From assembly GCF_015350905.1 (NCBI RefSeq), contig NZ_JADKRZ010000003.1, positions 124,001 through 188,000 on the forward strand: a DNA stretch of 64,000 bases, written 5' to 3'. Positions 6,112 to 19,788 of the stretch are shown in pieces. The DNA is from Curtobacterium sp. VKM Ac-2865 (lineage in GTDB: Bacteria; Actinomycetota; Actinomycetes; Actinomycetales; Microbacteriaceae). The notes beneath the pieces are model-generated. The model saw only the letters and a list, made by a program, of their open reading frames with translations. It was not told the DNA's origin and ran no database searches. How positions within the stretch are numbered: position 1 is the stretch's first letter; every line of letters begins with the position of its first letter. The position numbers were made by a program, and so were the translations under genes.

Positions 6112-6986
6112 ACGCCGCACCCCACGTCGACGGCTGGAAGCACGTGTCGTCCGGCAAGGTCCGCGAGCTCTACGTCCCTGCCACCACCGCGGACGTCGCC
6201 GGTGCCACCGAGCTGCTCCTGGTGGCCTCGGACCGCGTCAGCGCCTACGACTTCGCCCTCGAACCACCGATCCCCGGCAAGGGCGAGCTCCTGACGCGCC
6301 TGTCCCGCTTCTGGTTCACCCAGCTCGGTGACGTCCCGAACCACCTGCTCGGTCCGTCGGCCACCACGACCCCGGTGCCCTCCGACGTCGCGACGCGGTC
6401 CATGCACGTGATGCCACTGCGCATGTTCCCGGTCGAGTGCGTCGTCCGCGGCTACCTCTCCGGCAGCGGCTGGGCGGAGTACCAGGAGTCGGGCAGCGTG
6501 TGCGGCGTGCCGCTCCCCGCCGGGCTCTCCGACGGCGACCGACTGCCCGAGCCGATCTACACGCCGGCGTACAAGGCGCCGCAGGGCGAGCACGACGAGA
6601 ACATCTCGTTCGAGCGCACCGAGGAGCTCGTCGGCGCTGAGGTCGCTGCGACCCTCCGCGACCTCTCGCTGCACGTGTACTCCGAGGCTGCCGCCATCGC
6701 CCTGCAGCGCAGGGTCATCATCGCGGACACGAAGTTCGAGTTCGGACACGACACCTCCGGGCAGATCCGCATCGGGGACGAGGTCCTGACGAGTGACTCC
6801 AGCCGGTACTGGGACGCCTCCTCGTACGACGCCGGCAACCGCACCGACTCCTTCGACAAGCAGATCGTGCGCAACTGGCTCAGCGCGCACTGGGACCGCC
6901 AGGGCACGCCGCCGGTGCTCCCTGACGAGATCGTCGAGCGCACGGCGGCCCGGTACCGCGAGCTCATCGAGCGCCTCGGCGCCTGA
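6108..6986 (+). CDS. purC: SAICAR synthase
   Basis: Condenses CAIR with aspartate using ATP to give SAICAR. The protein has 292 residues from ATG 6108, which overlaps the purD stop by four bases. Family signatures are SSGKVRELY near the start, ECVVRGYLSGSGW, ADTKFEFG and DKQIVRNWL. Length is typical of the longer, actinobacterial PurC. A repeat-rich gap of about 550 bp follows instead of the next purine gene. Confidence 0.98.
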   Translation: MNAAPHVDGWKHVSSGKVRELYVPATTADVAGATELLLVASDRVSAYDFALEPPIPGKGELLTRLSRFWFTQLGDVPNHLLGPSATTTPVPSDVATRSMHVMPLRMFPVECVVRGYLSGSGWAEYQESGSVCGVPLPAGLSDGDRLPEPIYTPAYKAPQGEHDENISFERTEELVGAEVAATLRDLSLHVYSEAAAIALQRRVIIADTKFEFGHDTSGQIRIGDEVLTSDSSRYWDASSYDAGNRTDSFDKQIVRNWLSAHWDRQGTPPVLPDEIVERTAARYRELIERLGA

Positions 6987-7533
6987 CGCCCGAGCCGCAC
7001 CGTGCGAGGTGTCTCGCGCGGTGCGAGGTCGTGCACCCCCGCACCGTACGAGGTGTTCCGCCCGGTGCGAGGTCGTGCACCCCGTGCGGCGTGTCAGCCT
7101 CGCACCGCGTGCCCAACGCCGCACCGCGCGAAACCGCACCGCGCGCGTGCCGATGGAACCCGAGCGGTCACGACGCCCCGCTCACGTCCGCCGAGTGGTC
7201 ACGTCCTGTCGTTCCACGCCCCCGCACACGACAGAACGCGACCACTCACCGTCGCGCAGCGACAGGACGCGACCACTCGGCGACCCGGCGCCGTCGCGCA
7301 GCGACGACACCCGACCGCTCGGCGGGCGACAGTGCGGCCCTGAGCCGGCTCCGCGCCGGACTGGAGGCTCGGCGCACGTGGTGAGCACAGCCTCCAGTCC
7401 GGCGGTCGCCAGCTCCAGGACGGCCGCACCGTGCGCGCTTTCCCGGCCGGTGCGTGGTTGCGCACCCCGTGCGCCGCGTCAACCTCGCACCGAGTGACCG
7501 ACGCGGCACCAGAGCGGCGCGCCTAGCCCCGGG
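6987..7533. repeat. 550-bp gene-free gap packed with imperfect repeats
   Basis: No credible gene. Four kinds of repeat are present. Copies of GTGCGAGGT(C/T)GTGCAC-like sequence occur at about 7003-7110. A 19-bp unit GAGTGGTCACGTCCTGTCG lies at 7193-7211, with near-complements at 7229-7247 and 7260-7278. GTCGCGCAGCGAC occurs twice (about 7251-7306). A perfect 16-bp inverted repeat lies at 7354-7369/7389-7404. A further GTGCG/GCACC-rich unit ends the gap at about 7450-7500. Confidence 0.75.
7354..7404. terminator. Perfect 16-bp inverted repeat with 19-nt loop
   Basis: Arms CGCCGGACTGGAGGCT (7354-7369) and its exact complement (7389-7404). It lies about 130 bp beyond the stop of the minus-strand phosphatase and 370 bp after purC, so it could terminate either. 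The arm sequence CCGGACTGGAGGC recurs inside a gene near 20174, which also suggests a dispersed repeat. Confidence 0.5.
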
Positions 7534-8736
7534 TCAGCCTTCGCGCGCGATGACCACGACCGTCAGGTCGTCACCCGGGTCGTGCGTTCGGGCACGGGCA
7601 CGGACGCGCTCCAGGAAGGACGCGGTGTCCGTCGCCTTGCGGTAGAGCCCGCCGAGCCGCGAGAGCGACGCGAGCGTGGAGTCCCACAGCTCGAGCGCGC
7701 CGTCGCTGACCACGATGAGGGTGTCACCCGGCTCGAGCAGCAGGGATCCGCTGTTCCGGGGCAGCCCGACGGGGTGCAGCCCGAGCGGCAGGTCGAGCGA
7801 GCGGTGGATGGTCTCGGTGCCGTCGGCGTGCAGCTGCAGCACGAGGCCGTGTCCGGCGTCGACGAAGTCGAGGTGTCCGGTCGCCGGGTCGAGGCGTCCG
7901 TGGAAGAACGTGGCGAAGGACTCGGCGCGGCCGAGGTCGGGCGCGACCTGCCGCTCGAGCGCCGCGACGGCGACCGCGGGCTGTTCGTCGCCGCGGGCGA
8001 GGACGGCGCCGCGGATGCCCGCGCCGAGGAGTCCGGCCGACATGCCCTTGCCCATCACGTCGGAGACGGTCACCACGAGGGCGTCGCCGGACCGGTGCCA
8101 GTCGTGGAAGTCGCCGGAGACCACGCCGTGCGGGACGGACATGCCGTCGACGCGGTAGCCGGGCACGTCGACGGGGTCGGGCTCGAGTCCGGTGAGCACG
8201 GAGCGCAGGCGGTCCTCGTCGGCGCCGGCGGCGAGCTCGCGTTCGGCCCAGGTGCCGAGCTCCCGGAGCAGGGCGACGTCGTCGGGGCCCAGCGTGCGGG
8301 GCTGCTGGTCGATGAGGCACAGCGTGCCGACCTTGACGGCGTCGGAGCCGAGGCGCAGCGGGACGCCGGCGTAGAAGCGGACGTTCGGGTCGCCGGTCAC
8401 CATCGGCATGTCGCGGAAGCGGTCGTCGTCGAGCGCGTCGGGCACGAGCACGGCGCCCGGTTCAGTCATGGTCCGGCCACAGAAGGTGTCCCGCAGCGGG
8501 ATGGGACCGGTGAAGACCTCGTCGCTCTGCTGCGACTTGATGACGAGGTGGTCCTCGTTCGCGAGGTTGAGGAAGGAGCCGGAGACGCCGAAGGCCTCTC
8601 GTGCGATGCGGGTGATCCGCTCGAAGCGTTCCTCGGCCCCGCCCTGCACGACGTCGAGGGCGGCGAGGAGCGCAGCCCGCTTCGCTGCGTCCGGACGGGA
8701 CGTCGGTTGCACGCTCGTCCCGGTCCCGACTGTCAT
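7534..8736 (-). CDS. GAF-domain SpoIIE-type serine phosphatase
   Basis: A 400-residue soluble signalling protein. A GAF sensor domain (about 20-165, with DTFCGRTM and VRFYAGVPL) is followed by a PPM/SpoIIE phosphatase domain (about 190-398). Metal-binding acidic motifs are visible: VSGDFHDW, VSDVMGKGMSAGLL, VDAGHG, VSDGALELWD and the terminal DDLTVVVIAR. Such enzymes usually dephosphorylate anti-sigma-factor antagonists in partner-switching pathways. No anti-sigma or STAS gene is adjacent, so the partner is unknown. Start ATG 8736; a CCCCCAGTAGGCGGG motif lies 57 bp upstream. Confidence 0.9.
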   Translation of the reverse strand: MTVGTGTSVQPTSRPDAAKRAALLAALDVVQGGAEERFERITRIAREAFGVSGSFLNLANEDHLVIKSQQSDEVFTGPIPLRDTFCGRTMTEPGAVLVPDALDDDRFRDMPMVTGDPNVRFYAGVPLRLGSDAVKVGTLCLIDQQPRTLGPDDVALLRELGTWAERELAAGADEDRLRSVLTGLEPDPVDVPGYRVDGMSVPHGVVSGDFHDWHRSGDALVVTVSDVMGKGMSAGLLGAGIRGAVLARGDEQPAVAVAALERQVAPDLGRAESFATFFHGRLDPATGHLDFVDAGHGLVLQLHADGTETIHRSLDLPLGLHPVGLPRNSGSLLLEPGDTLIVVSDGALELWDSTLASLSRLGGLYRKATDTASFLERVRARARTHDPGDDLTVVVIAREG

Positions 8737-8843
8737 GCCTCCACGCTAGCGCGCCGATCGGACATCGCCTGTCCCCCCATCTGAGGACTCCTGCCCCCAG
8801 TAGGCGGGTCAACCGGGTCGGGTCACCGTCGTAGGCTTATCAC

Positions 8844-9164
8844 GTGATCCGTCGCTCTGCCACCGTGCTCGTCGTCGGCCTCGTGGCGGCGCTGACGTTG
8901 TCCGGCTGCGGCGCCCAGGACTCCACCGGCCGCATCACCGTCACGGTGTCGCAGAACGAGGCCGAGCACCAGTACCGGGTGGAGGTCCTCATCCCGAACG
9001 GGCGCACCGCCGCGCAGCAGCGCGCGTTCCCCGGCGACACCCTGCGCTTCGCGGGCATCGCCGTGGGGAAGGTGACGGTCCGTGCGAACGACCTCTGCAC
9101 CCAGACGGCGATGATCGAGAGCGGCAAGGTGACCGACGTCACGCTGACCTCGATCGGCTGCTGA
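8844..9164 (+). CDS. Small secreted lipoprotein
   Basis: A 106-residue protein with a classical lipoprotein signal: two Arg at 3-4, a hydrophobic core and the lipobox LSGC with Cys at 22. The mature part (about 85 residues) has two more cysteines (in NDLCTQ and the final Cys) that could form a disulfide, and a beta-rich pattern. Start GTG 8844. It is divergent from the phosphatase and convergent with the AraC gene. No family recognised; likely anchored to the outer face of the membrane. Confidence 0.8.
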   Translation: MIRRSATVLVVGLVAALTLSGCGAQDSTGRITVTVSQNEAEHQYRVEVLIPNGRTAAQQRAFPGDTLRFAGIAVGKVTVRANDLCTQTAMIESGKVTDVTLTSIGC

Positions 9165-9196
9165 GCCCGACGCCGCCGCTGCGTCGGCACCCCGGC

Positions 9197-10066
9197 TCAG
9201 TCGCGGTGGCTGCGGCCTGACCCGGCCCGGTCGACCGTCTCGTGCGGGCTCTCACCGAACCGGTCGCGGTAGCTCGCCGCGAACCGACCGAGGTGCATGA
9301 ACTGCCAGCGCCGTGCCGCGTCCTGCACGGTGACGACGCCGCGAGCCGGCCGCGCCTGGAGGTCCAGGTGCACACGGTCGAGTCGGACCTCGCGCAGGTA
9401 CCGCATCGGCGTGACGTCGAGTGTCCGCCGGAACAGGTCCTGGATGCCGCGCTCGCTGAGCCCGGCCGCCACGGCGATGTCCCCGACGGTGATGTCGTCC
9501 GCCGCCTGGTCGTGCACGAACCGGACGGCCCGCCGCAGCCGGTTCTCGACGTCCGCCCGCGAGCGCGTGAACGTCGACAGCACGACCTTCGCCACCCGGC
9601 GGTTCACGCCCTGGCGGTCGGCCTGGGGCAGGTCGGGGTCGAGGATCTGCGCGGTCACCTCGCGCAGCAGCGCCCGCAGCGGTTCGAGTCGGATGTCCGA
9701 GGCCTCGGGCTGCACGAACTCCCACGGTTCGCCCGCGGCGCCGTCGTCGGAGGTCCGAGCAGCCACGGCGTCGAGGAACGCCGGCGTGAGGTGCAGCAGC
9801 GTCATCCGGGTGGCGTCGGTGTCGAACGCGTAGGCGACCGGCGCGGAGAGCATCACCGGTCGGCCGGGTCCGACCTCCCACCGGTCGCCGGTGTCGGCAG
9901 TCACGACGGCGTGCCCGTCCGACAGCCAGAACAGCACGTGCGCGGGACGGGGTCCGATCGTGCCGGTCTGCGGTCCGTTCGTCCCGATCCGGTGCACGGA
10001 GACGTCGTCGTCACCGCCCGTGCGGTACTCGAAGGGCGTTCCCGCCGTGCCCTCGGTCTCCGTCAC
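9197..10066 (-). CDS. AraC-family transcriptional regulator
   Basis: A 289-residue regulator with an N-terminal cupin-like sensor half and a C-terminal AraC domain (about 180-275). Both helix-turn-helix segments are visible: DITVGDIAVAAGLSERGIQD and, further on, VQDAARRWQFMHLGRFAASY. The frame opens to ATG 10132, but that start lies inside a 28-bp palindrome. GTG 10066 (VTETEGTAG) is preferred because it leaves a clean divergent promoter region. It faces the VOC dioxygenase gene across 105 bp and is the obvious candidate regulator, although AraC proteins normally bind direct rather than inverted repeats. Confidence 0.85.
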   Translation of the reverse strand: MTETEGTAGTPFEYRTGGDDDVSVHRIGTNGPQTGTIGPRPAHVLFWLSDGHAVVTADTGDRWEVGPGRPVMLSAPVAYAFDTDATRMTLLHLTPAFLDAVAARTSDDGAAGEPWEFVQPEASDIRLEPLRALLREVTAQILDPDLPQADRQGVNRRVAKVVLSTFTRSRADVENRLRRAVRFVHDQAADDITVGDIAVAAGLSERGIQDLFRRTLDVTPMRYLREVRLDRVHLDLQARPARGVVTVQDAARRWQFMHLGRFAASYRDRFGESPHETVDRAGSGRSHRD

Positions 10067-11203: not shown

Positions 11204-12310
11204 TCACCGGGTCCGGAAGTAGCGGTGCAGAGCCCGTTCCCGGACGAGGGTCACGCCGACGACGCCGCCCGCCACGGCTCCCAGGAACCCCAGCGTGCAC
11301 AGGACGACCGCGTGGACCACGATGGGCCACGCATCGGCGTCCGGCAGCCCACGCACCAGGACGACTGACGCTGCCACGGCCAGTGCGGCACCGACGGACG
11401 CCCACGCTCCGTGCTGGATCCCGATGCCCAGCGCCTGCGCGCCGATGGTCACCCCGACGTGCCGGTCGGATGCGGTCGACAGTCGTCGACGGATGACTGC
11501 ACCGATGCCCACCACCAGGCCGATGCCGAGCACCACGGCCTCGGTTGCCCCGCTCGGTGGCGGTGCCGTCGGCGTGAACGTGGTGCCGGACCGCGGGTTG
11601 AGCTGCCCGAGGGTCGATCGGGCATCGTCCTCGGCACCGGTCGACGGCAGCAGGGTCCGTCGGAGTCCCGCGAGTGCGGTGTCGTCCTCGGGCCAGATCG
11701 TCGCCCAGCAGGCGTCGAACGGGGTGCCGTCGTCGATCGCGGGGGCGAGCACCGCGTACGCCAGGTCCGGGTCGCGGCCGTCGTCCGGCCAGGCATACAC
11801 ACCGGCTACCGGCACCGTGCCCTGGGCAGCCTCGATGCGCTGGCCGGGCTCGACGCCGAGCGTGTCCGCGACCTCGGCCGAGGCCACGACGCCGGACCCA
11901 CCGACGACGCCCTCGACGCCGACCACGGCAGCGAATCCGCCCGAGACCTCGTAGGTCGGGACGGACGTACCCGGCAGTGCTGCGACGACCAGCCCGTCCT
12001 CGACCCGACGCACCGCCCCGGACGCGAGGACGGACCCATCGTCGGCGAGCGCTGCGCAGGCGGTGCCGTCGATCCGCCCGTCGGCGGTGAAGACCTGTGT
12101 CGCCGCGCCGGACGTGACGAACCTTGCGGCGGCGCGGACGTCCTCCGCGGTCGACGCCGTGCGCAGTCCGACGACCCCGGCGAGGAGCACCGCGAGGACG
12201 AGCGCGCACGTCACGGCGGCTCCGGCCCCCGTCGCGAGGTCCCGCCAGGCTTCGCGGACCACCTCCGCCGTGCGCATCCGACTCCGCCGTGACACCTGCC
12301 GATCGGTCAC
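11204..12310 (-). CDS. ABC transporter permease, FtsX/MacB-like layout
   Basis: A 368-residue membrane protein, last gene of a six-gene operon. One N-terminal helix (about 28-48) is followed by a large extracytoplasmic domain (about 50-260, with VVASAEVADTLGVEPG resembling MacB-type periplasmic domains). Three C-terminal hydrophobic segments then follow (about 262-282, 308-328 and 335-358). This is the one-plus-three helix plan of FtsX-like permeases. It starts with GTG 12310, overlapping the ATPase stop as GTGA. With the ATPase and the peptidoglycan-binding partner it would form a MacAB-like complex acting on the operon's secreted products. Confidence 0.8.
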   Translation of the reverse strand: MTDRQVSRRSRMRTAEVVREAWRDLATGAGAAVTCALVLAVLLAGVVGLRTASTAEDVRAAARFVTSGAATQVFTADGRIDGTACAALADDGSVLASGAVRRVEDGLVVAALPGTSVPTYEVSGGFAAVVGVEGVVGGSGVVASAEVADTLGVEPGQRIEAAQGTVPVAGVYAWPDDGRDPDLAYAVLAPAIDDGTPFDACWATIWPEDDTALAGLRRTLLPSTGAEDDARSTLGQLNPRSGTTFTPTAPPPSGATEAVVLGIGLVVGIGAVIRRRLSTASDRHVGVTIGAQALGIGIQHGAWASVGAALAVAASVVLVRGLPDADAWPIVVHAVVLCTLGFLGAVAGGVVGVTLVRERALHRYFRTR

Positions 12311-12903
12311 CGGAACTGCCCCAGGTCGAGGACGTCCCCGCAGGCGGCGCGGGTGGCGTCGTCATGGGTCGCGACGACGACCGTGGTGCCCGTTGCCGCG
12401 AGCTCCCCGATGGCGTCGTTCACCTCGGCAGCGGTCGCCCGGTCGAGCTGCGCCGTCGGTTCGTCGACCAGCATCAGCGTCGGAGCGGACACCACACCAC
12501 GTGCGAGCATGAGCCGCTGCGCCTCCCCGCCGGAGAGCTCCCGGAACCGCGCCGACGCCCGTCGCGCCAGGCCGAAGCGCTCGAGGACCTCCGTGGCTCG
12601 GTCGTCCGCTGCGCGACGGGTCAGCCCCCGCGCGAGCAACGGCAGCGACACGTGGTCCAGAGCCGACCGACGGGCGACGCCGTGCGGGTTCTGGAACACC
12701 CACAGCACCTCGGCACCGGTCGGCAGCTCCACGGTTCCGGCCGTCGGCACCAGCATCCGGGCGAGGACCGCGAGCAGGGTCGACTTGCCCGCCCCACTCG
12801 GCCCCACCAGCGCCGTCACCGATCCCTCCTCGAAGACCCACTCGACGTCACGGAACAGCTCCGTGCCGCCAGGCCAGCGGTGCCCGACCGCGTGGAGCGT
12901 CAC
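12307..12903 (-). CDS. ABC transporter ATP-binding protein
   Basis: A 198-residue nucleotide-binding subunit. Walker A GPSGAGKST at 34-42, Q-loop Gln 71, signature LSGGE at 123-127, Walker B LMLVDE at 143-148 and the H-loop His in VATHDD are all present, so it should be active. It is short for the family and lacks a C-terminal extension, as in the LolD/MacB group. Start GTG 12903 overlaps the upstream stop as GTGA; GTG 12909 is an in-frame alternative. A longer open frame upstream is antisense noise. Confidence 0.93.
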   Translation of the reverse strand: MTLHAVGHRWPGGTELFRDVEWVFEEGSVTALVGPSGAGKSTLLAVLARMLVPTAGTVELPTGAEVLWVFQNPHGVARRSALDHVSLPLLARGLTRRAADDRATEVLERFGLARRASARFRELSGGEAQRLMLARGVVSAPTLMLVDEPTAQLDRATAAEVNDAIGELAATGTTVVVATHDDATRAACGDVLDLGQFR

Positions 12904-13955
12904 CGGCACGATTGCCCACGCTCCGGCGTCGCGCGGACTCGGTCCAGGGTGTCGCCTGAGTCGAGCCGCACGAAGGACTGCCCGAGCTCCGACCCGACCA
13001 CCTCGACGAGGAGCGGCTGCCCCTCGGCCGGTTGGACGCATGCATGGTCGTCGCGCACGTCCCACAGCGCCGTCGGCGGGACGACCCGGACCTCGAGCGG
13101 GTCCCGCAGCGACCACGACCCGGACAGGCTCGGTACACCGTCGGCCGACGCAACCGTGGCGGCGTACTCCGGCAGCGCCCCGATGGCAGCGAGGTCGGAC
13201 TGCCCGGTGACGACTCCGCGCTCGTCGACGTCGGCCTGTACCTGCCCGAGGAGGACTCGGCGAGCACCTGCCACGGCGTCACCCGGGAGCTGCTCGACTC
13301 TGGCGCTCCGCAGCTCGGCGGGCAGTTCCACCAGCACCCCGTCAGCACCGACCGGAGCCCCGACGACCGCGGTGCACGTCCTGACCGTGGTCTCGGCGGA
13401 GGGGATCCACGCGAACGCCGACCGCTCGATCGTGTCGTCGGTCACGTCGTCGCGCGTGAAGCCGTGCGCGAGGAGGAAGCTCTGCGCGGCTCGCAGTGTC
13501 CGCGCGCCGACGATCCCGTCGACCGTGACCGGCACCCCGAGTCGCGCGAGCTCCTGCTGCAGCCCGCGGACGTCATCCCCGCGGTCGTCGACAGCGAGGT
13601 CGCGGTACAGCGGGGTCCCCGTCGCCATGGCGATCACCGGGCGGTCGTCCACCCGGGCGATCGCAACACCGCTCCGCAGGACCCCGCCCGTCGTGCACGA
13701 CGACGCCGTGACCGTCCCCAAGCGTGTCGTGACGACCGCGCGAGGCGCACCGGTGTCGAGCGCCAGCTGCACCTGGTGCTCGTCGGCGTCCGACCGTTGC
13801 GTCACGGCAACGTTGGCAGCCGGGGTCGCGGTCGCGAGGGCCGCCGGTGGGTCGACCGGGAGCGCCACGACGACGCCCATGGCCGCTGCCGCCGCGACGA
13901 GCAGGCTGCCGAGAGCGATGAGCGGCCCAGAGACGGCACCCCTCCCCCGGCTCAT
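12900..13955 (-). CDS. Membrane-anchored peptidoglycan-binding protein, MacA-like partner
   Basis: A 351-residue protein. A single N-terminal membrane helix (about 9-33) is followed by an extracytoplasmic part carrying a PG_binding_1 motif at about 125-165 (RGDDVRGLQQELARLG, then VDGIVGARTLRAAQ). The C-terminal 150 residues are beta-rich. Similar proteins adjoin MacB-type ABC genes in many actinobacteria, where they are thought to play the adaptor role of MacA/HlyD while docking to the cell wall. Start ATG 13955 overlaps the upstream lipoprotein stop as ATGA. Role in this operon is inferred from position. Confidence 0.82.
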   Translation of the reverse strand: MSRGRGAVSGPLIALGSLLVAAAAAMGVVVALPVDPPAALATATPAANVAVTQRSDADEHQVQLALDTGAPRAVVTTRLGTVTASSCTTGGVLRSGVAIARVDDRPVIAMATGTPLYRDLAVDDRGDDVRGLQQELARLGVPVTVDGIVGARTLRAAQSFLLAHGFTRDDVTDDTIERSAFAWIPSAETTVRTCTAVVGAPVGADGVLVELPAELRSARVEQLPGDAVAGARRVLLGQVQADVDERGVVTGQSDLAAIGALPEYAATVASADGVPSLSGSWSLRDPLEVRVVPPTALWDVRDDHACVQPAEGQPLLVEVVGSELGQSFVRLDSGDTLDRVRATPERGQSCR

Positions 13956-14536
13956 CCGTCCCGCCAGAGTCCGAGCGGATCGAGCCGGCACTGGATCGCT
14001 TCAGCCGCCCACTCGTCGTACGAGTACTTCCCGGTCTCGTCCTCCGACCGCCATTTCCGCTCCGTGTAGTCCTCGCCGACCAGTCCCGCCGCATGGAGGC
14101 ACTTCACGGTGATCGTGGCGTCGTCCTGCTTCTGCGGGTTCCGCCGCACCTGGTTGTGGAGGTACGAGACGTCGTGGTCGAAGCGCGCCGAGCACGACCG
14201 CAAGAACCCGCTCACCGTGTCGATGCTCTCGATCTGACCATGCAGTGGATCTGCTTCGGCGGTGCCGTCATCCGCCTGCTCGTACCGGTACCCGTGGTCG
14301 CGCATGCATGCGCTTGTCCGTTGCTGAGCGTCCGCCCGCTCCGCGGCGGTGATCACACCGTCCTCGAGTATCCGGTCCTGGTAGGGGCTGCCGACAGCGT
14401 CAGCGAACTCCTGCGCCCACGGGCCTGCGGCTTCGAACCCCGTGGTCGACCGTGCTGATGGTTCCTCCTGCGCGCAGCCAGTCCCCAGAAGTGAGACCGC
14501 GAGCAGCACTGCCGCAGCACAGCCTTGCCGGCTCAT
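13952..14536 (-). CDS. Lipoprotein, second of a tandem paralogous pair
   Basis: A 194-residue predicted lipoprotein: MSRQGCAAAVLLAVSLLGTG with the lipobox Cys at 21. The mature part shares with its neighbour at 14533-15159 the blocks GPWA-(E/D)F-DA, ITV-CL-AG-VG, YTERKW-SE and the identical ending DPLGLWRD. Four or so cysteines are conserved between the two. Start ATG 14536 overlaps the upstream stop as ATGA, and its own stop overlaps the next start. I recognise no named family. In this operon it may bind or protect against the secreted peptide, which is inference. Confidence 0.8.
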   Translation of the reverse strand: MSRQGCAAAVLLAVSLLGTGCAQEEPSARSTTGFEAAGPWAQEFADAVGSPYQDRILEDGVITAAERADAQQRTSACMRDHGYRYEQADDGTAEADPLHGQIESIDTVSGFLRSCSARFDHDVSYLHNQVRRNPQKQDDATITVKCLHAAGLVGEDYTERKWRSEDETGKYSYDEWAAEAIQCRLDPLGLWRDG

Positions 14537-15159
14537 CGGTCCCGCCAGAGTCCGAGCGGATCGAGGTCGCACTGCTGGGCGCGCGGGTCGGAGTCGTTGA
14601 ACGAGAAGACTCCGCTGTCGTACTCGGACTGCCACTTCCGTTCTGTGTAGGCCTTGCCGACGATGCCAGCCTTGCGGAGACAGGCGACGGTGATCTTCGC
14701 CTCGTCCTGCTTCTCCGGGTTGCGCCGTGTCTCTTGGAAGAGCATGGTCACGTACTCGTCGTACCGCTTCTCGCAGGCTTCGAGCACCGCGTTCGTCCGG
14801 GTCATGTCATTGCTCGGCGATGCGCCGCGCAGACTGCCGATCTCGAAACCGCCATCGGCGCTGTAGGTGATCGTGTAACCGAAGTCTTCAAGACACCGAC
14901 TGATGCGGTCGTGGGCATCCTCGACCTCGGCAGTCGTGACCTGCCCATCGGAGAGGATGCCCGCTTCGTAGTCAGAGACACCATGTGCGAGCGCGTCCCG
15001 GAAGTCCTCGGCCCAGGGCCCTGCATGCTCCAACGAGGCGTCGTCAGTGCTCCTGGCCGCATTCGAGCTCTTGTCAGCGGAGCAACCCGCGAGCAGCAGC
15101 GAGACCACGGCCGCGGCTGCGAGGACCGCCTCGGCGCGGCAGTGCTCCCGACGCCGCAT
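14533..15159 (-). CDS. Lipoprotein, first of a tandem paralogous pair
   Basis: A 208-residue predicted lipoprotein with signal core AEAVLAAAAVVSLLLAGC and lipobox LAGC (Cys at about 26). The mature domain begins with a Ser/Asp-rich linker, then GPWAEDFRDALAHG. It contains several cysteines (SRCLEDFGY, LEACEKRY, VACLRKAG, QQCDLDPLG) that match positions in the paralogue downstream. It starts at ATG 15159, immediately after the TAG of the secreted peptide gene (no spacer), with AGG of the ribosome site inside the peptide gene. Unknown family. Confidence 0.8.
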   Translation of the reverse strand: MRRREHCRAEAVLAAAAVVSLLLAGCSADKSSNAARSTDDASLEHAGPWAEDFRDALAHGVSDYEAGILSDGQVTTAEVEDAHDRISRCLEDFGYTITYSADGGFEIGSLRGASPSNDMTRTNAVLEACEKRYDEYVTMLFQETRRNPEKQDEAKITVACLRKAGIVGKAYTERKWQSEYDSGVFSFNDSDPRAQQCDLDPLGLWRDR

Positions 15160-15438
15160 CTACCTGGCCGTCATCCCGTAGGAGACGACGTTCGCCCAGC
15201 AGGCATTCTGCTGCGACCACTTCCCCTTGCCGACCCAGGCGCCGTACTTGGCGTTGGAGTTCTTGATGGCGTCCCAGTGGCGCGCGGACGAGCAGGTGTT
15301 GTTCTTCCCCTTCCAGATGCTGACTGACCCGTAGCACGCCGCGGCCTTCGCCTCCGGCGCCTTCGCGATGTCCAGCGCGATGCCACCACTGACGACCGTG
15401 CCGATGACGGCTGCTCCGAGCACGAACTTCGAGATCAT
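15160..15438 (-). CDS. Secreted 59-residue-class peptide, bacteriocin-like
   Basis: A 92-residue precursor with a Sec signal (MISKFVLGAAVIGTVVSGG...) and a cleavage-like AKA at 30-32. The mature part is about 59 residues, basic, Trp-, Lys- and Asn-rich, with three cysteines (about 35, 49 and 80) and the motif KYGAWVGKGKWSQQ. The size, the Sec leader, the Trp/Gly/Lys pattern and the linked ABC genes recall the lactococcin-972 family, but I cannot confirm homology. A strong ribosome site (GGAGGAA, 6 bp before ATG 15438) heads the operon. It could instead be a signal or wall-modifying peptide. Confidence 0.75.
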   Translation of the reverse strand: MISKFVLGAAVIGTVVSGGIALDIAKAPEAKAAACYGSVSIWKGKNNTCSSARHWDAIKNSNAKYGAWVGKGKWSQQNACWANVVSYGMTAR

Positions 15439-15479
15439 GGTTCTTCCTCCCCGTTGTTGTCCACGAACCCCTCGTGGTG

Positions 15480-15515
15480 ATCGGTAACGTATTACCGGTC
15501 AGCACGTCAGCGCAA
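15480..15515 (-). promoter_or_regulatory. Probable promoter region of the six-gene operon
   Basis: On the minus strand TTGCGC (15510-15515) precedes TACGTT by 18 bp. The -10 side lies inside a small dyad, CGGTAA-CGTA-TTACCG, read on the plus strand at about 15482-15497. The dyad could be an operator. Weak evidence, based on pattern and position only. Confidence 0.35.
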
Positions 15516-15547
15516 CCCCTCGCAGCAGCCCCGTGCAGGATGGACGG

Positions 15548-16263: not shown

Positions 16264-17793
16264 TTACGCCTGGACCGCGACCTTCTCCGGGTCCTCGTTC
16301 GATCCCGGCGCGCTCGGCGCGACCGCGGCGCGCACGCGCGCACCCAGGTCGGGGTCGACGTTGGTCCAGTACGCGAACACGCGCTCGCGCAGGTCGTCAC
16401 GCGTCACCTTCGAGACGTGCCCGGCGATGTTGCCGACCAGGCGCTCGCGGGCGTCGTCGTCGAGGACCTCACGGTAGAGCGTGCCGGCCTGGCCGAAGTC
16501 GTCGTCCTCGGGGTGGAGCGTCGCGGCGGAGCGCTGCAGCGCGCCGTCGGACTCCCAGCCGGGGGCGTCGTCCGTGGCGGTCGGGTCGGCGTGCGCGCCA
16601 CCGAGCGAGTTCGGCGCGTACACGGGGACCTCGGACTTCTGGAAGTCGAAGCGCATGGCGCCGTCCTTCGAGTACGAGTGCACCTCGTTCTTCGGGGCGT
16701 TCACCGGCAGCTGCGCGTGGTTCGTGCCGACGCGGTAGCGGTGGGCGTCCGCGTAGCTGAAGATGCGCGCGAGGAGCATCTTGTCGGGGCTGGCCGCGAT
16801 GCCGGGGACGAAGTTCGAGGGCGCGAAGGTCGCCTGCTCGATCTGCGCGAAGTAGTTCTCCGGGTTGCGGTTGAGCTCCATCGTGCCGACCTCGATGAGG
16901 GGGTAGTCCGCGTGCGGCCACACCTTGGTCAGGTCGAACGGGTTGAAGCGGTAGCTGGCGGCGTCCTCGTACGGCATGACCTGCACCGCGAGTGTCCAGC
17001 GCGGGTTGTCGCCACGCTCGATCGCCTCGTGGAGGTCGCGGATGTGGAAGTCGGCGTCTTCACCGGCGATGCGGTCGGCGTCCTCCTGCGTCAGGGTCGC
17101 GTGGCCCTGCTCGGTGCTGAAGTGGTACTTCACCCAGAAGCGCTCGCCGTCGGCGTTGATCCACTGGTAGGTGTGCGACCCGAAGCCGTCCATGTGCCGC
17201 CAGCTCGACGGCAGGCCGCGGTCGCCCATCAGCCACGTGACCTGGTGCGCCGACTCGGGCGACAGGGTCCAGAAGTCCCACTGCATGTCGTGGTCGCGGA
17301 GGTGCGAGCCCGGCAGGCGCTTCTGCGAGCGGATGAAGTCGGGGAACTTGATGCCGTCGCGGATGAAGAACACCGGGGTGTTGTTGCCGACGAGGTCGTA
17401 GTTGCCCTCGGTCGTGTAGAACTTCAGCGCGAAGCCGCGGGGGTCGCGCCAGGTGTCCGGGGAGCCCTGCTCGCCGGCGACGCTGGAGAAGCGCGCGAGC
17501 ATCTCGGTCTGCTGACCCGGCTGCAGGAACGCGGCACGGGTGAAGCGGCTGACGTCGTGCGTGACGGTGAAGGTGCCGAACGCACCGCCGCCCTTGGCGT
17601 GGACGACGCGCTCCGGGACCCGCTCGCGGTTGAACTGGGCGAGCTTCTCGACGAGGTAGTGGTCGTGCAGGGCGAGGGGGCCGTCGGCCCCGACACCCAT
17701 CGAGTGCTCGTCGCTCGAGACGGGGGCGCCGCTGTTGGTCGTGGTGGTGGGCGTGCTGGACGGGGTGCCGGTCGGCGTGTTCTGGTCGGACAC
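16264..17793 (-). CDS. Haem catalase
   Basis: Breaks down hydrogen peroxide. The protein has 509 residues from GTG 17793, chosen because AGGAGG sits 5 bp upstream; the open frame runs 17 codons further. The distal His is in [12 protein letters not shown], the Asn in [12 protein letters not shown], and the haem-ligand Tyr in [13 protein letters not shown]. The N-terminal 35 residues are Thr/Ser/Pro-rich and probably disordered. Length fits small-subunit (clade 3-type) catalases. A Fur-family regulator gene lies 79 bp upstream in the same direction, the usual peroxide-sensing arrangement. Confidence 0.96.
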
Positions 17794-17872
17794 GGTTCCT
17801 CCTGGGATGGGGCTGGTTCGGACGGGGATGCTCGGGTGGCTCATGGGGTCGGACGTGGTGGCTGACGGTGGG

Positions 17873-18322
17873 TCAGGCGGGGACTGGCTCGACCTCGGCG
17901 TCGACGCGCTCGGCTGCGGCGCAGGCGTCGCAGATGCCCCAGTAGGTGACCTCGGCCGTGGTGACGGCGAAGCCGTGCGCGTCGGACGGCGTCAGACAGG
18001 GGGCGTGTCCGACCGCGCAGTCGACGTCGGCGATCGTGCCGCACATCGTGCAGACGATGTGGTGGTGGTTGTCACCGGTCCGTCGCTCGTAGCGCGCGGG
18101 GCTGCCGGCGGGTTCGATCCGCCGGACCAGTCCGGCGCCGGTCAGTGCTGCCAGGACGCCGTAGACCGCCTGGTGACTCGTCGTCGGCAGCTCGGCGGCG
18201 AGCGCGGTGACGATGTCGTCGGCCGTCGCGTGCGGCACGGATCCCGTCGCCCGGAGGACGGCGAGACGCGGGGTCGTGATACGGAGTCCGGCTGCGCGGA
18301 GCAGGTCTGCGTCGTCATCCAT
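17873..18322 (-). CDS. Fur-family regulator, probable peroxide or iron sensor
   Basis: A 149-residue DNA-binding protein. A winged-helix N-terminal half ([27 protein letters not shown]) is followed by a metal-binding half with [17 protein letters not shown] and a second Cys pair in WGICDACAA (the structural zinc tetrad CxxC...CxxC). The HHHIV element is the regulatory-metal region. Start ATG 18322; the longer upstream frame is not supported. Placed just upstream of the catalase gene, it probably represses it and itself, as FurA or CatR/PerR do. The region upstream (18323-18370) is locally AT-richer and probably carries the promoter and Fur box. Confidence 0.9.
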
Positions 18323-18486
18323 GAGGACCCCTTCTTTTGCAACGGTCAAGACAATGGCCACTGTAGCGTGATCCGCTGACACCTGCACGACCGCCGCATG
18401 CCGGAGCCGGAATACATGTGTCACGGTTCGGTCGCGATCAGCTGGGTCGACCCTGGGAACGCGCCATCGGCCAGTAGCGTCCGAGC

Positions 18487-19788
18487 ATGTCCACGAAGAA
18501 CGTGCAGGGGTCGCACTTCGCTCAGGACGCCCGGGGGACCATCGCACAGCGGGACCTGGTCGTCGACCTCATCCGGACGGCCTGCGTCGTCCTCGTCGTC
18601 GTCGTGCACGTCACGATGGTCGGAGTCGGGGTGAGCGACGCCGGCATCCGCGTGACGAGCCCACTGCAGGAGCTCGACTGGTACGTCGCAGCCACGTGGG
18701 TCGGCCAGGTGATGCCGCTCTTCTTCGTCGTCGGCGGGTTCGCCAGCGCCGTCGGGTGGCGGAGCACCCTCGCCCGCGGGGGCGGCGCCCGCGACTTCGT
18801 GTCGACCAGACTCGTCCGGCTGTTCCGTCCCGCGGTGCCGCTCTTCGCGGTGCTGACGATCGGGCTGGGCGTCGCCACCGTGGTCGGCACGCCCGCCGAG
18901 ATGCTCGACGAGGTCGCGTTCGGGATCGGGGCACCGCTCTGGTTCCTGGCCGCCTACGGCATCACGCAGTGCTGCGTCCCGGTGATGGCGCGCCTGCACG
19001 AGCGCGCCCCGTGGTGGACGCTGGCCGGGCTGCTCGTCCTCGCTGCCGCGGTGGACGCCCTCCGCTTCGCCACCGACACCGCCGAGGTCGGCCTGCTCAA
19101 CCTCGGCCCGGTGTGGCTCTTCGCCCAGCAGCTCGGCTTCCTCTGGGCGGACGGCTGGTTCGCCCGACGGTCACGACTGTCCCTGGCGCTCGTCGCCGTG
19201 GGTGCCTACGCCCTGCTCGTCCCGATGACGTCGATCGGGCTGTGGGCGCCGGACATGCTGCAGGACCTCAACCCGCCGATGCTGCCGCTCGCCCTGCTGG
19301 CCGTCGCGCAGGCGTGCCTGGTGCAGCTCGTCCACGCGCCGCTCACCCGGCTGATGCGGACCCGGGCGGCGCAGGGCACCGTCTTCGTGCTCGGCCGCGA
19401 CGGCATGACGATCTACCTCTGGCACCTGCCGCTGTACATCGCCCTGAACGGCATCGGGCTGCTGGTCGGCCTGCCGTTCCCCACGCCCGGGTCGGCGACG
19501 TGGTGGGCGACCCGGCCGATCGCCCTCGTCGTCGTCCTGGCCGTCGCGCTCGGCGTGGCGCGGGGCCTCCGTCGGTCCGACCGCCCGCTCCCCCGCCTGG
19601 TGCCCGGGACCGACCGTCCGGCCTGGCCGGTGGTCGTCCTCGCCGCGTGCTGCACCATCGGTCCGGCGTTCGCGGTCATGCAGCTGCACCTGTCGCTCGG
19701 AGTCGCTCTCGTCGGGGCCGTGCTGGTGCCGGTCGGCGTGTGGCTGCTGTGTCGGACCGTCCCGGCGGTCGGCGTCCGGCGCGCCTGA
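18487..19788 (+). CDS. Acyltransferase-3 family integral membrane protein
   Basis: A 433-residue protein with about ten hydrophobic segments. The N-terminal block RDLVVDLIRTACVVLVVVVH, with an Arg/Asp pair and a catalytic-type His in the first helix, and the FFVVGGFAS motif are characteristic of the acyltransferase-3 family. That family moves acyl groups onto extracellular sugars, lipids or peptides. The GRDGMTIYLWHLPLY block near residue 315 is also typical. Start ATG 18487 has a weak ribosome site. It stands alone after a divergent promoter region shared with fur; the substrate is unknown. Confidence 0.85.
   Translation: MSTKNVQGSHFAQDARGTIAQRDLVVDLIRTACVVLVVVVHVTMVGVGVSDAGIRVTSPLQELDWYVAATWVGQVMPLFFVVGGFASAVGWRSTLARGGGARDFVSTRLVRLFRPAVPLFAVLTIGLGVATVVGTPAEMLDEVAFGIGAPLWFLAAYGITQCCVPVMARLHERAPWWTLAGLLVLAAAVDALRFATDTAEVGLLNLGPVWLFAQQLGFLWADGWFARRSRLSLALVAVGAYALLVPMTSIGLWAPDMLQDLNPPMLPLALLAVAQACLVQLVHAPLTRLMRTRAAQGTVFVLGRDGMTIYLWHLPLYIALNGIGLLVGLPFPTPGSATWWATRPIALVVVLAVALGVARGLRRSDRPLPRLVPGTDRPAWPVVVLAACCTIGPAFAVMQLHLSLGVALVGAVLVPVGVWLLCRTVPAVGVRRA

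Follow-up and report, generated by a model that had tools for sequence, protein, structure and literature searches.

Lactococcin 972 has been described as binding lipid II and inhibiting septum formation (PMC9964109, PMC8538875), and the available portions of those two accounts mention no lipoprotein partner. Immunity to a lantibiotic is provided by NisI together with NisFEG, a lipoprotein and an ATP-binding cassette (ABC) transporter (PMC8538875), and JUQZ-1 of Brevibacillus is a secreted antibacterial protein of 12 kDa with a signal peptide (PMC11747845). In the portions of the literature available to us, including PMC11747845, PMC8538875, PMC9964109 and PMC12328743, no set of lipoprotein, peptidoglycan (PG)-binding adaptor and ABC genes is tied to lactococcin 972 or to a peptide of the type described here. 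Such a set is encoded at positions 11204–15438 of a 64,000-nucleotide stretch of the Curtobacterium sp. VKM Ac-2865 genome (contig NZ_JADKRZ010000003.1, positions 124,001–188,000; the window), where six minus-strand genes specify a secreted peptide, two lipoproteins (A and B), an adaptor, an ABC ATPase and a permease. We conclude that this operon is probably a bacteriocin locus in which a cognate lipoprotein provides immunity and a MacAB-like pump is docked to the wall.

The operon shares with lactococcin 972 loci (PF09683) a small, basic, tryptophan-rich peptide secreted by the Sec pathway and followed by ABC genes. It differs in having lipoproteins, a PG-binding adaptor and a 368-residue permease where the canonical loci L119–L121 have a protein of 667–704 residues and an ABC protein, and its peptide has no sequence match to the family. 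As in the LanI and LanFEG systems (NisI, SpaI), a surface lipoprotein and an ABC transporter are encoded with a peptide; in contrast to those systems, no lantibiotic or lanthipeptide-modification family is found among the Pfam and NCBIfam matches listed for the six window proteins, and we know of no counterpart in LanFEG of an adaptor with a PG-binding domain. The ATPase, the permease with four predicted transmembrane (TM) segments and a large loop, and the adaptor with a weak membrane-fusion-like stretch recall MacAB-type tripartite transporters, whereas the window set belongs to an actinobacterial host, carries a PG-binding domain on its adaptor and encodes ATPase and permease as separate chains. 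The BLB8/JUQZ-1 family (NF053514) is likewise secreted with a signal peptide, but the window peptide itself does not match that model. Two Mycetocola members of the peptide family reach E values of 0.0027 and 0.0045 on it with bit scores of 18.0 and 17.2, short of the cut-off (40), and JUQZ-1 was set aside as a relative on the grounds that the match is only weak. TMcin was also considered, and no link to the peptide was found in the part of its description available.

The original prediction described six minus-strand genes joined throughout by junctions of 0 or 4 base pairs (bp), and all six open reading frames (ORFs) and their junctions are present: the stop codon TAG of the peptide gene abuts the ATG of the lipoprotein A gene (0 bp), and the remaining junctions are 4-bp overlaps reading ATGA, ATGA, GTGA and GTGA. 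The first gene (15160–15438) encodes a peptide of 92 residues. By eye, its signal (approximately residues 1–32) is of the Sec type, with AKA preceding AACYG, and the mature part (AACYG...MTAR) has 60 residues rather than the predicted 59 or so, with three cysteines, five tryptophans, eight lysines and arginines, one acidic residue and an isoelectric point of about 9.8, in keeping with the Trp/Lys-rich, three-cysteine secreted peptide that had been proposed. In an AlphaFold2 model, 53 of the 92 residues have a predicted local distance difference test score of at least 90 and there is no helix; the peptide is predicted to fold as a small β domain. We infer that it acts as a bacteriocin.

Among 66 Curtobacterium genomes, the peptide was found in 26, all of which also have the lipoprotein and the permease, the latter reduced to a C-terminal piece in genome G035. 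Co-occurrence at this frequency shows that the arrangement is not a product of chance. The original prediction had named a peptide gene not conserved with the other genes as grounds for rejection; with the peptide accompanied by at least part of the remaining set in 26 of 26 genomes, this check does not refute it. The first peptide search kept 17 of 18 genomes. Peptide matches in G004 (L018) and G272 (L044), which have internal stops and apparently lie inside other genes, and in G335 (L043), which has an internal stop, were dropped, and weak matches in G015 (lipoprotein search) and G014 (permease search) were left uncounted. Two genomes have the lipoprotein without a window-type peptide: G009 carries a complete set beside a lactococcin 972 gene on the opposite strand, and G362 a lone lipoprotein.

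In 24 of the 26 genomes the peptide gene adjoins the same NodA-like acetyltransferase gene (GNAT; Pfam), while in G365 and G366 the operon lies at other sites. At the operon-free site, the GNAT gene is separated from a glyoxalase-family gene (VOC) by 26–386 bp with no operon genes between them in 20 of 20 genomes, which were fetched from the 42 that lack the operon at this site (among them G366, with its operon elsewhere). Compared with G029, which has a 96% identical GNAT, the window contains a single extra stretch of 4320 bp (11205–15524, with edges good to about 1 base) made up of the six genes and their upstream region; by blastn, its flanks are 92% and 89% identical to locus L194 of G029, where they are contiguous. 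The operon is gained or lost as one unit. The peptide most similar to that of the window (95%) occurs in G013, in an operon with one lipoprotein.

Lipoproteins A (14533–15159, 208 residues) and B (13952–14536, 194 residues) are 44–46% identical to each other, and a lipobox-like cysteine and four further cysteines are invariant across 18 lipoprotein rows. The two paralogous, cysteine-rich lipoproteins of the original prediction are therefore present as described, but their number is not a fixed feature, varying from one to four across the 26 operons. In these operons, a lipoprotein gene follows every one of the 33 peptide genes, and a further 10 lipoprotein genes have no peptide (43 in total); tandem peptide–lipoprotein units occur, with four in G024. 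The peptides fall into class I (CYG...SYGM), to which the window peptide belongs, and class II (CW...QYGM-like), those of G365 and G366 being unclassed. In a leave-one-out comparison, the closest lipoprotein from a different genome (below 97% identity) identifies the class of the adjacent peptide in 30 of 32 pairs; both misses are unclassed, leaving 30 of 30 among classed peptides. For the 19 genomes with a single class, the lipoprotein is correct in 19 of 19 cases, compared with 9 of 18 for the ABC ATPase, 10 of 19 for the permease and 11 of 18 for the adaptor, all three at about the level of chance. For peptide against lipoprotein distances the correlation is 0.80, a value reached by none of 2000 permutations, and 0.79 once the ABC distance is held fixed; for peptide against ABC distances it is 0.27. 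L028 (G028), excluded from the pair statistics because of its frameshifted lipoprotein, does count among the 19 single-class genomes; L076 (G360), whose lipoprotein is also frameshifted, was kept as a fragment in both analyses. The peptide–lipoprotein pair varies as a module, largely independently of the pump genes.

Lipoprotein A, which adjoins the peptide gene, is predicted from this pairing and from its lipobox-like and four conserved cysteines to be the cognate immunity protein for its own peptide. Lipoprotein B has no peptide of its own. Its identity averages 0.53 with the partners of class II peptides and 0.46 with those of class I peptides, and its three best matches (0.59, 0.57 and 0.57) are all class II-paired although the window peptide is of class I; it is a predicted orphan immunity protein. 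Six single-class genomes have orphan lipoproteins, and in four of them (the window's own, G007, G003 and G163) these are of the other class; in G007, a peptide remnant lies beside one of the orphans. Such spare lipoproteins may confer immunity against the peptides of competitors. Neither the peptide nor either lipoprotein has a significant match in Pfam or NCBIfam. The lipoprotein alignment (A4) comprises the two window proteins and 52 of 79 hits, and the peptide alignments comprise the window and 55 of 90 hits (A3) or 18 of 20 unique peptides, two others and the window (A1).

The same companions accompany true lactococcin 972 genes in related genera. Of 249 Microbacteriaceae genomes searched with the curated PF09683 model, 30 carry matching genes, 39 in all. 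For 22 of the 39, the next gene downstream, in the same orientation, encodes a member of the same lipoprotein family, as established by reading and comparing coordinates; the count may be too low because the lipoprotein profile search scored only 10 candidates per genome. Eighteen regions were fetched for the 39 matches, with further regions added later. Maps built with hidden Markov models (HMMs) reveal the order lactococcin 972, lipoprotein, adaptor, ABC, permease in several genera, and the window proteins find these lactococcin 972 companions at 23–59% identity. Among 28 complete sets in Microbacteriaceae outside Curtobacterium, 18 have lactococcin 972, five a window-type peptide (L086, L087, L170, L175 and L186), and three another small Sec peptide (L183, L185 and, with its genes ordered differently, L187). 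In the other two no peptide was recognised; one of them lies close to the end of a contig. The lactococcin 972 share is biased, the loci having been chosen by PF09683 or by a lipoprotein profile partly built from them, and small peptides were recognised with a crude custom script. A 29th set (L249) also has lactococcin 972. The ATPase is absent from the set at L123, and at L174 two lactococcin genes alternate with three lipoproteins. Four further loci (L125, L127, L191 and L192) have lactococcin 972 and the lipoprotein with no such pump nearby, so that the pair looks like the minimal unit. Lipoprotein matches extend to other families of the order, as do 11 complete sets, one with lactococcin 972 and two with window-like peptides (E values of 5e-6 and 5e-3). 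The likeness to lactococcin 972 loci proposed in the original prediction is supported by these companion genes; the peptide itself gives no PF09683 match, as set out below.

Related arrangements were also observed. Two of the 39 PF09683 genes lie elsewhere in the window's own genome (G000:C14:55564-55746, L119; G000:C10:63631-63822, L120). Together with L121 they have the canonical form of lactococcin 972, a protein of 667–704 residues (674 at L119 and 667 at L120) and an ABC protein. At L180, L181 and L184, a Sec peptide and lipoprotein are followed by an ABC exporter with a fused membrane domain in place of adaptor, ABC and permease (from Pfam matches for L180 and L184). Loci L243–L246 and L250, from other families of the order, are arrays of three or four genes for lipoproteins of this family, pointing the same way or in mixed directions, in which no peptide was recognised. 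Genome G007 has a second, divergent lipoprotein–adaptor–ABC–permease set (L088, G007:C1:752000-766000, at 6184–9960) with a divergently encoded small Sec-like protein.

The putative pump of the window is encoded by the last three genes. The adaptor (12900–13955, 351 residues) has one N-terminal TM segment and, at residues 125–160 (13476–13583, the PG_binding_1 span), a PG-binding stretch. The PG-binding domain that had been proposed is borderline in the single sequence, with PG_binding_3 scoring 24.5 bits against a cut-off of 24.6, and becomes clear with a profile of eight adaptors, which matches solved PG-binding proteins with an E value of 1.1e-6; a CusB-like, membrane-fusion stretch is weak by profile (E values of 0.46–0.57). 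The ABC ATPase (12307–12903, 198 residues) matches PF00005 at 5.2e-27, with Walker A, signature, Walker B and H-loop motifs identified by eye. Anti-phage defence was set aside, since PADLOC matches only this protein (best 'mad3', 6.5e-27) and these were taken as generic ATPase matches. The permease (11204–12310) has four strong hydrophobic segments (24–55, 253–277, 300–323 and 325–357) with a large loop after the first, and a marginal fifth at 125–144. It has no Pfam match, PF02687 included, and its best NCBIfam match reaches only an E value of 0.45, while a relative at L128 matches FtsX (PF02687) at 5.5e-4 and 20.4 bits, below the threshold of 25.5; we describe the window protein as a putative MacB/FtsX-like permease.

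We propose that the peptide exits by the Sec pathway and is directed against related bacteria, and that it may, like lactococcin 972, target a precursor of the cell wall; lipid II in this role is a guess drawn from lactococcin 972. With a Sec signal of its own, the peptide would not need the ABC proteins for its export. Lipoprotein A, anchored on the outer face of the membrane, would bind and block its own peptide, and the PG-binding domain of the adaptor is predicted to dock the pump to the wall. By analogy with LanI and LanFEG, the ATPase, four-TM permease and adaptor could then move captured peptide away from the membrane and into the wall, with orphan lipoproteins protecting against the peptides of rivals. 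The original prediction had offered a wall-targeted peptide with lipoprotein immunity and a wall-docked pump, and this gains comparative support from the concerted change of peptide and lipoprotein, from the orphan lipoproteins of the other class and from the shared companions of true PF09683 genes in related genera. We lean, with somewhat less assurance, toward a broader reading in which a conserved chassis of immunity lipoprotein, wall-docked adaptor, ABC and permease accepts swappable peptide–lipoprotein cassettes, lactococcin 972 included, the spare lipoproteins forming an immunity library.

Several observations weigh against this interpretation. No link in sequence between the peptide and lactococcin 972 is detectable, and the match in fold is weak. 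In G368 and G369 the orphans belong to the resident class, and the G018 orphan has an internal stop. In two of the 26 genomes (G028 and G360), an intact peptide lies beside a frameshifted sole lipoprotein, a situation hard to reconcile with an indispensable immunity gene unless the pump alone protects the cell or the frameshifts are assembly errors. Genome G035 keeps the peptide, minus one cysteine, and the lipoprotein, having lost the adaptor, the ABC ATPase and most of the permease; with the four lactococcin 972 loci that have no pump, it suggests that the pump may not be needed. In addition, 8 of the 11 complete sets in other families of the order have no peptide recognised by the filters.

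The pairing of peptide and lipoprotein would also be expected if the lipoprotein worked at the cell surface as a carrier or chaperone, maturing the peptide and passing it to the ABC complex for release, with the pump as the last stage of export. Conserved cysteines in both partners make disulfide exchange conceivable, and the two genomes that retain a peptide with a broken sole lipoprotein also fit this view. We nevertheless regard it as unlikely: orphan lipoproteins, which would be chaperones without a client, are common (10 of 43 in the 26 genomes) and often of the other class, and loci L085, L173, L176 and L178 have lipoproteins without a recognised peptide or matching pump, which makes the reading hard to sustain. 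ABC pumps with extracellular domains can serve as sensors, and the recurrence of a promoter-like core upstream of the peptide gene would suit the peptide-sensing envelope-stress module that the original prediction gave as its alternative, with the peptide as signal, the lipoproteins as receptors and the ABC set as relay. The Pfam and NCBIfam matches listed for the six genes include no kinase, regulator or sigma factor, however, the peptide is absent from 40 of the 66 genus genomes, and lactococcin 972 genes occupy its place in relatives; we consider such a module very improbable.

A further proposal concerns ancestry and is compatible with the bacteriocin reading, namely that the peptide is a highly diverged member of the lactococcin 972 family, so that a known family has acquired unusual companions. 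In a fold search with the peptide, the match to lactococcin 972 (the β-sandwich of 2LGN) is weak. The highest-ranking fold matches are tied at low scores, and a designed protein heads the list. None of the 56 peptides in alignment A3 matches PF09683; profile–profile comparison of the peptide with lactococcin 972 (hhalign) gives a probability of 2.9% and an E value of 0.015 for one comparison; and cross-HMM scores do not exceed 7.3 bits, with the lactococcin HMM scoring these peptides at no more than 6.4 bits. The window ATPase reaches 113.5 bits on the lactococcin 972 ABC model (TIGR03608, L_ocin_972_ABC) against a cut-off of 254.85, which is lower than its scores on FtsE and other models; L120, a canonical locus, has an ATPase that also misses the cut-off, at 167 bits. 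We regard common descent as possible, though less likely than not.

Upstream of the peptide gene, comparison among relatives points to a promoter-like element, TTGCGC-18-TACGTT (15486–15515, minus strand), whose TACGTT core recurs upstream of peptide genes in many of them; a sigma-70 scan did not list the element. A near-palindrome, GGTAATACGTTACC (minus strand, 15483–15496), spans the promoter-like core; that exact palindrome occurs only in the window. Farther upstream lie a catalase gene (16264–17844), which is found in the conserved flank of the mapped loci of 16 relatives, and a Fur-family gene (17873–18547). A small plus-strand ORF on the other side (8844–9164, 106 residues) has a lipobox-like start and no Pfam match. 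Scans of the window with Rfam, at the gathering threshold, and for tRNAs found nothing, and a plasmid search with the lipoprotein gave no match.

If our interpretation is correct, more than half of the sampled lactococcin 972 genes in Microbacteriaceae (22 of 39) have a dedicated surface protein, and the pairing of peptide and protein, as seen in Curtobacterium, can be read from sequence. Immunity would then be directly testable, and the lipoprotein and PG-binding adaptor would offer a handle for detecting secreted bacteriocins that escape current family models, the window peptide included. The operon could also help to explain competition between Curtobacterium strains.

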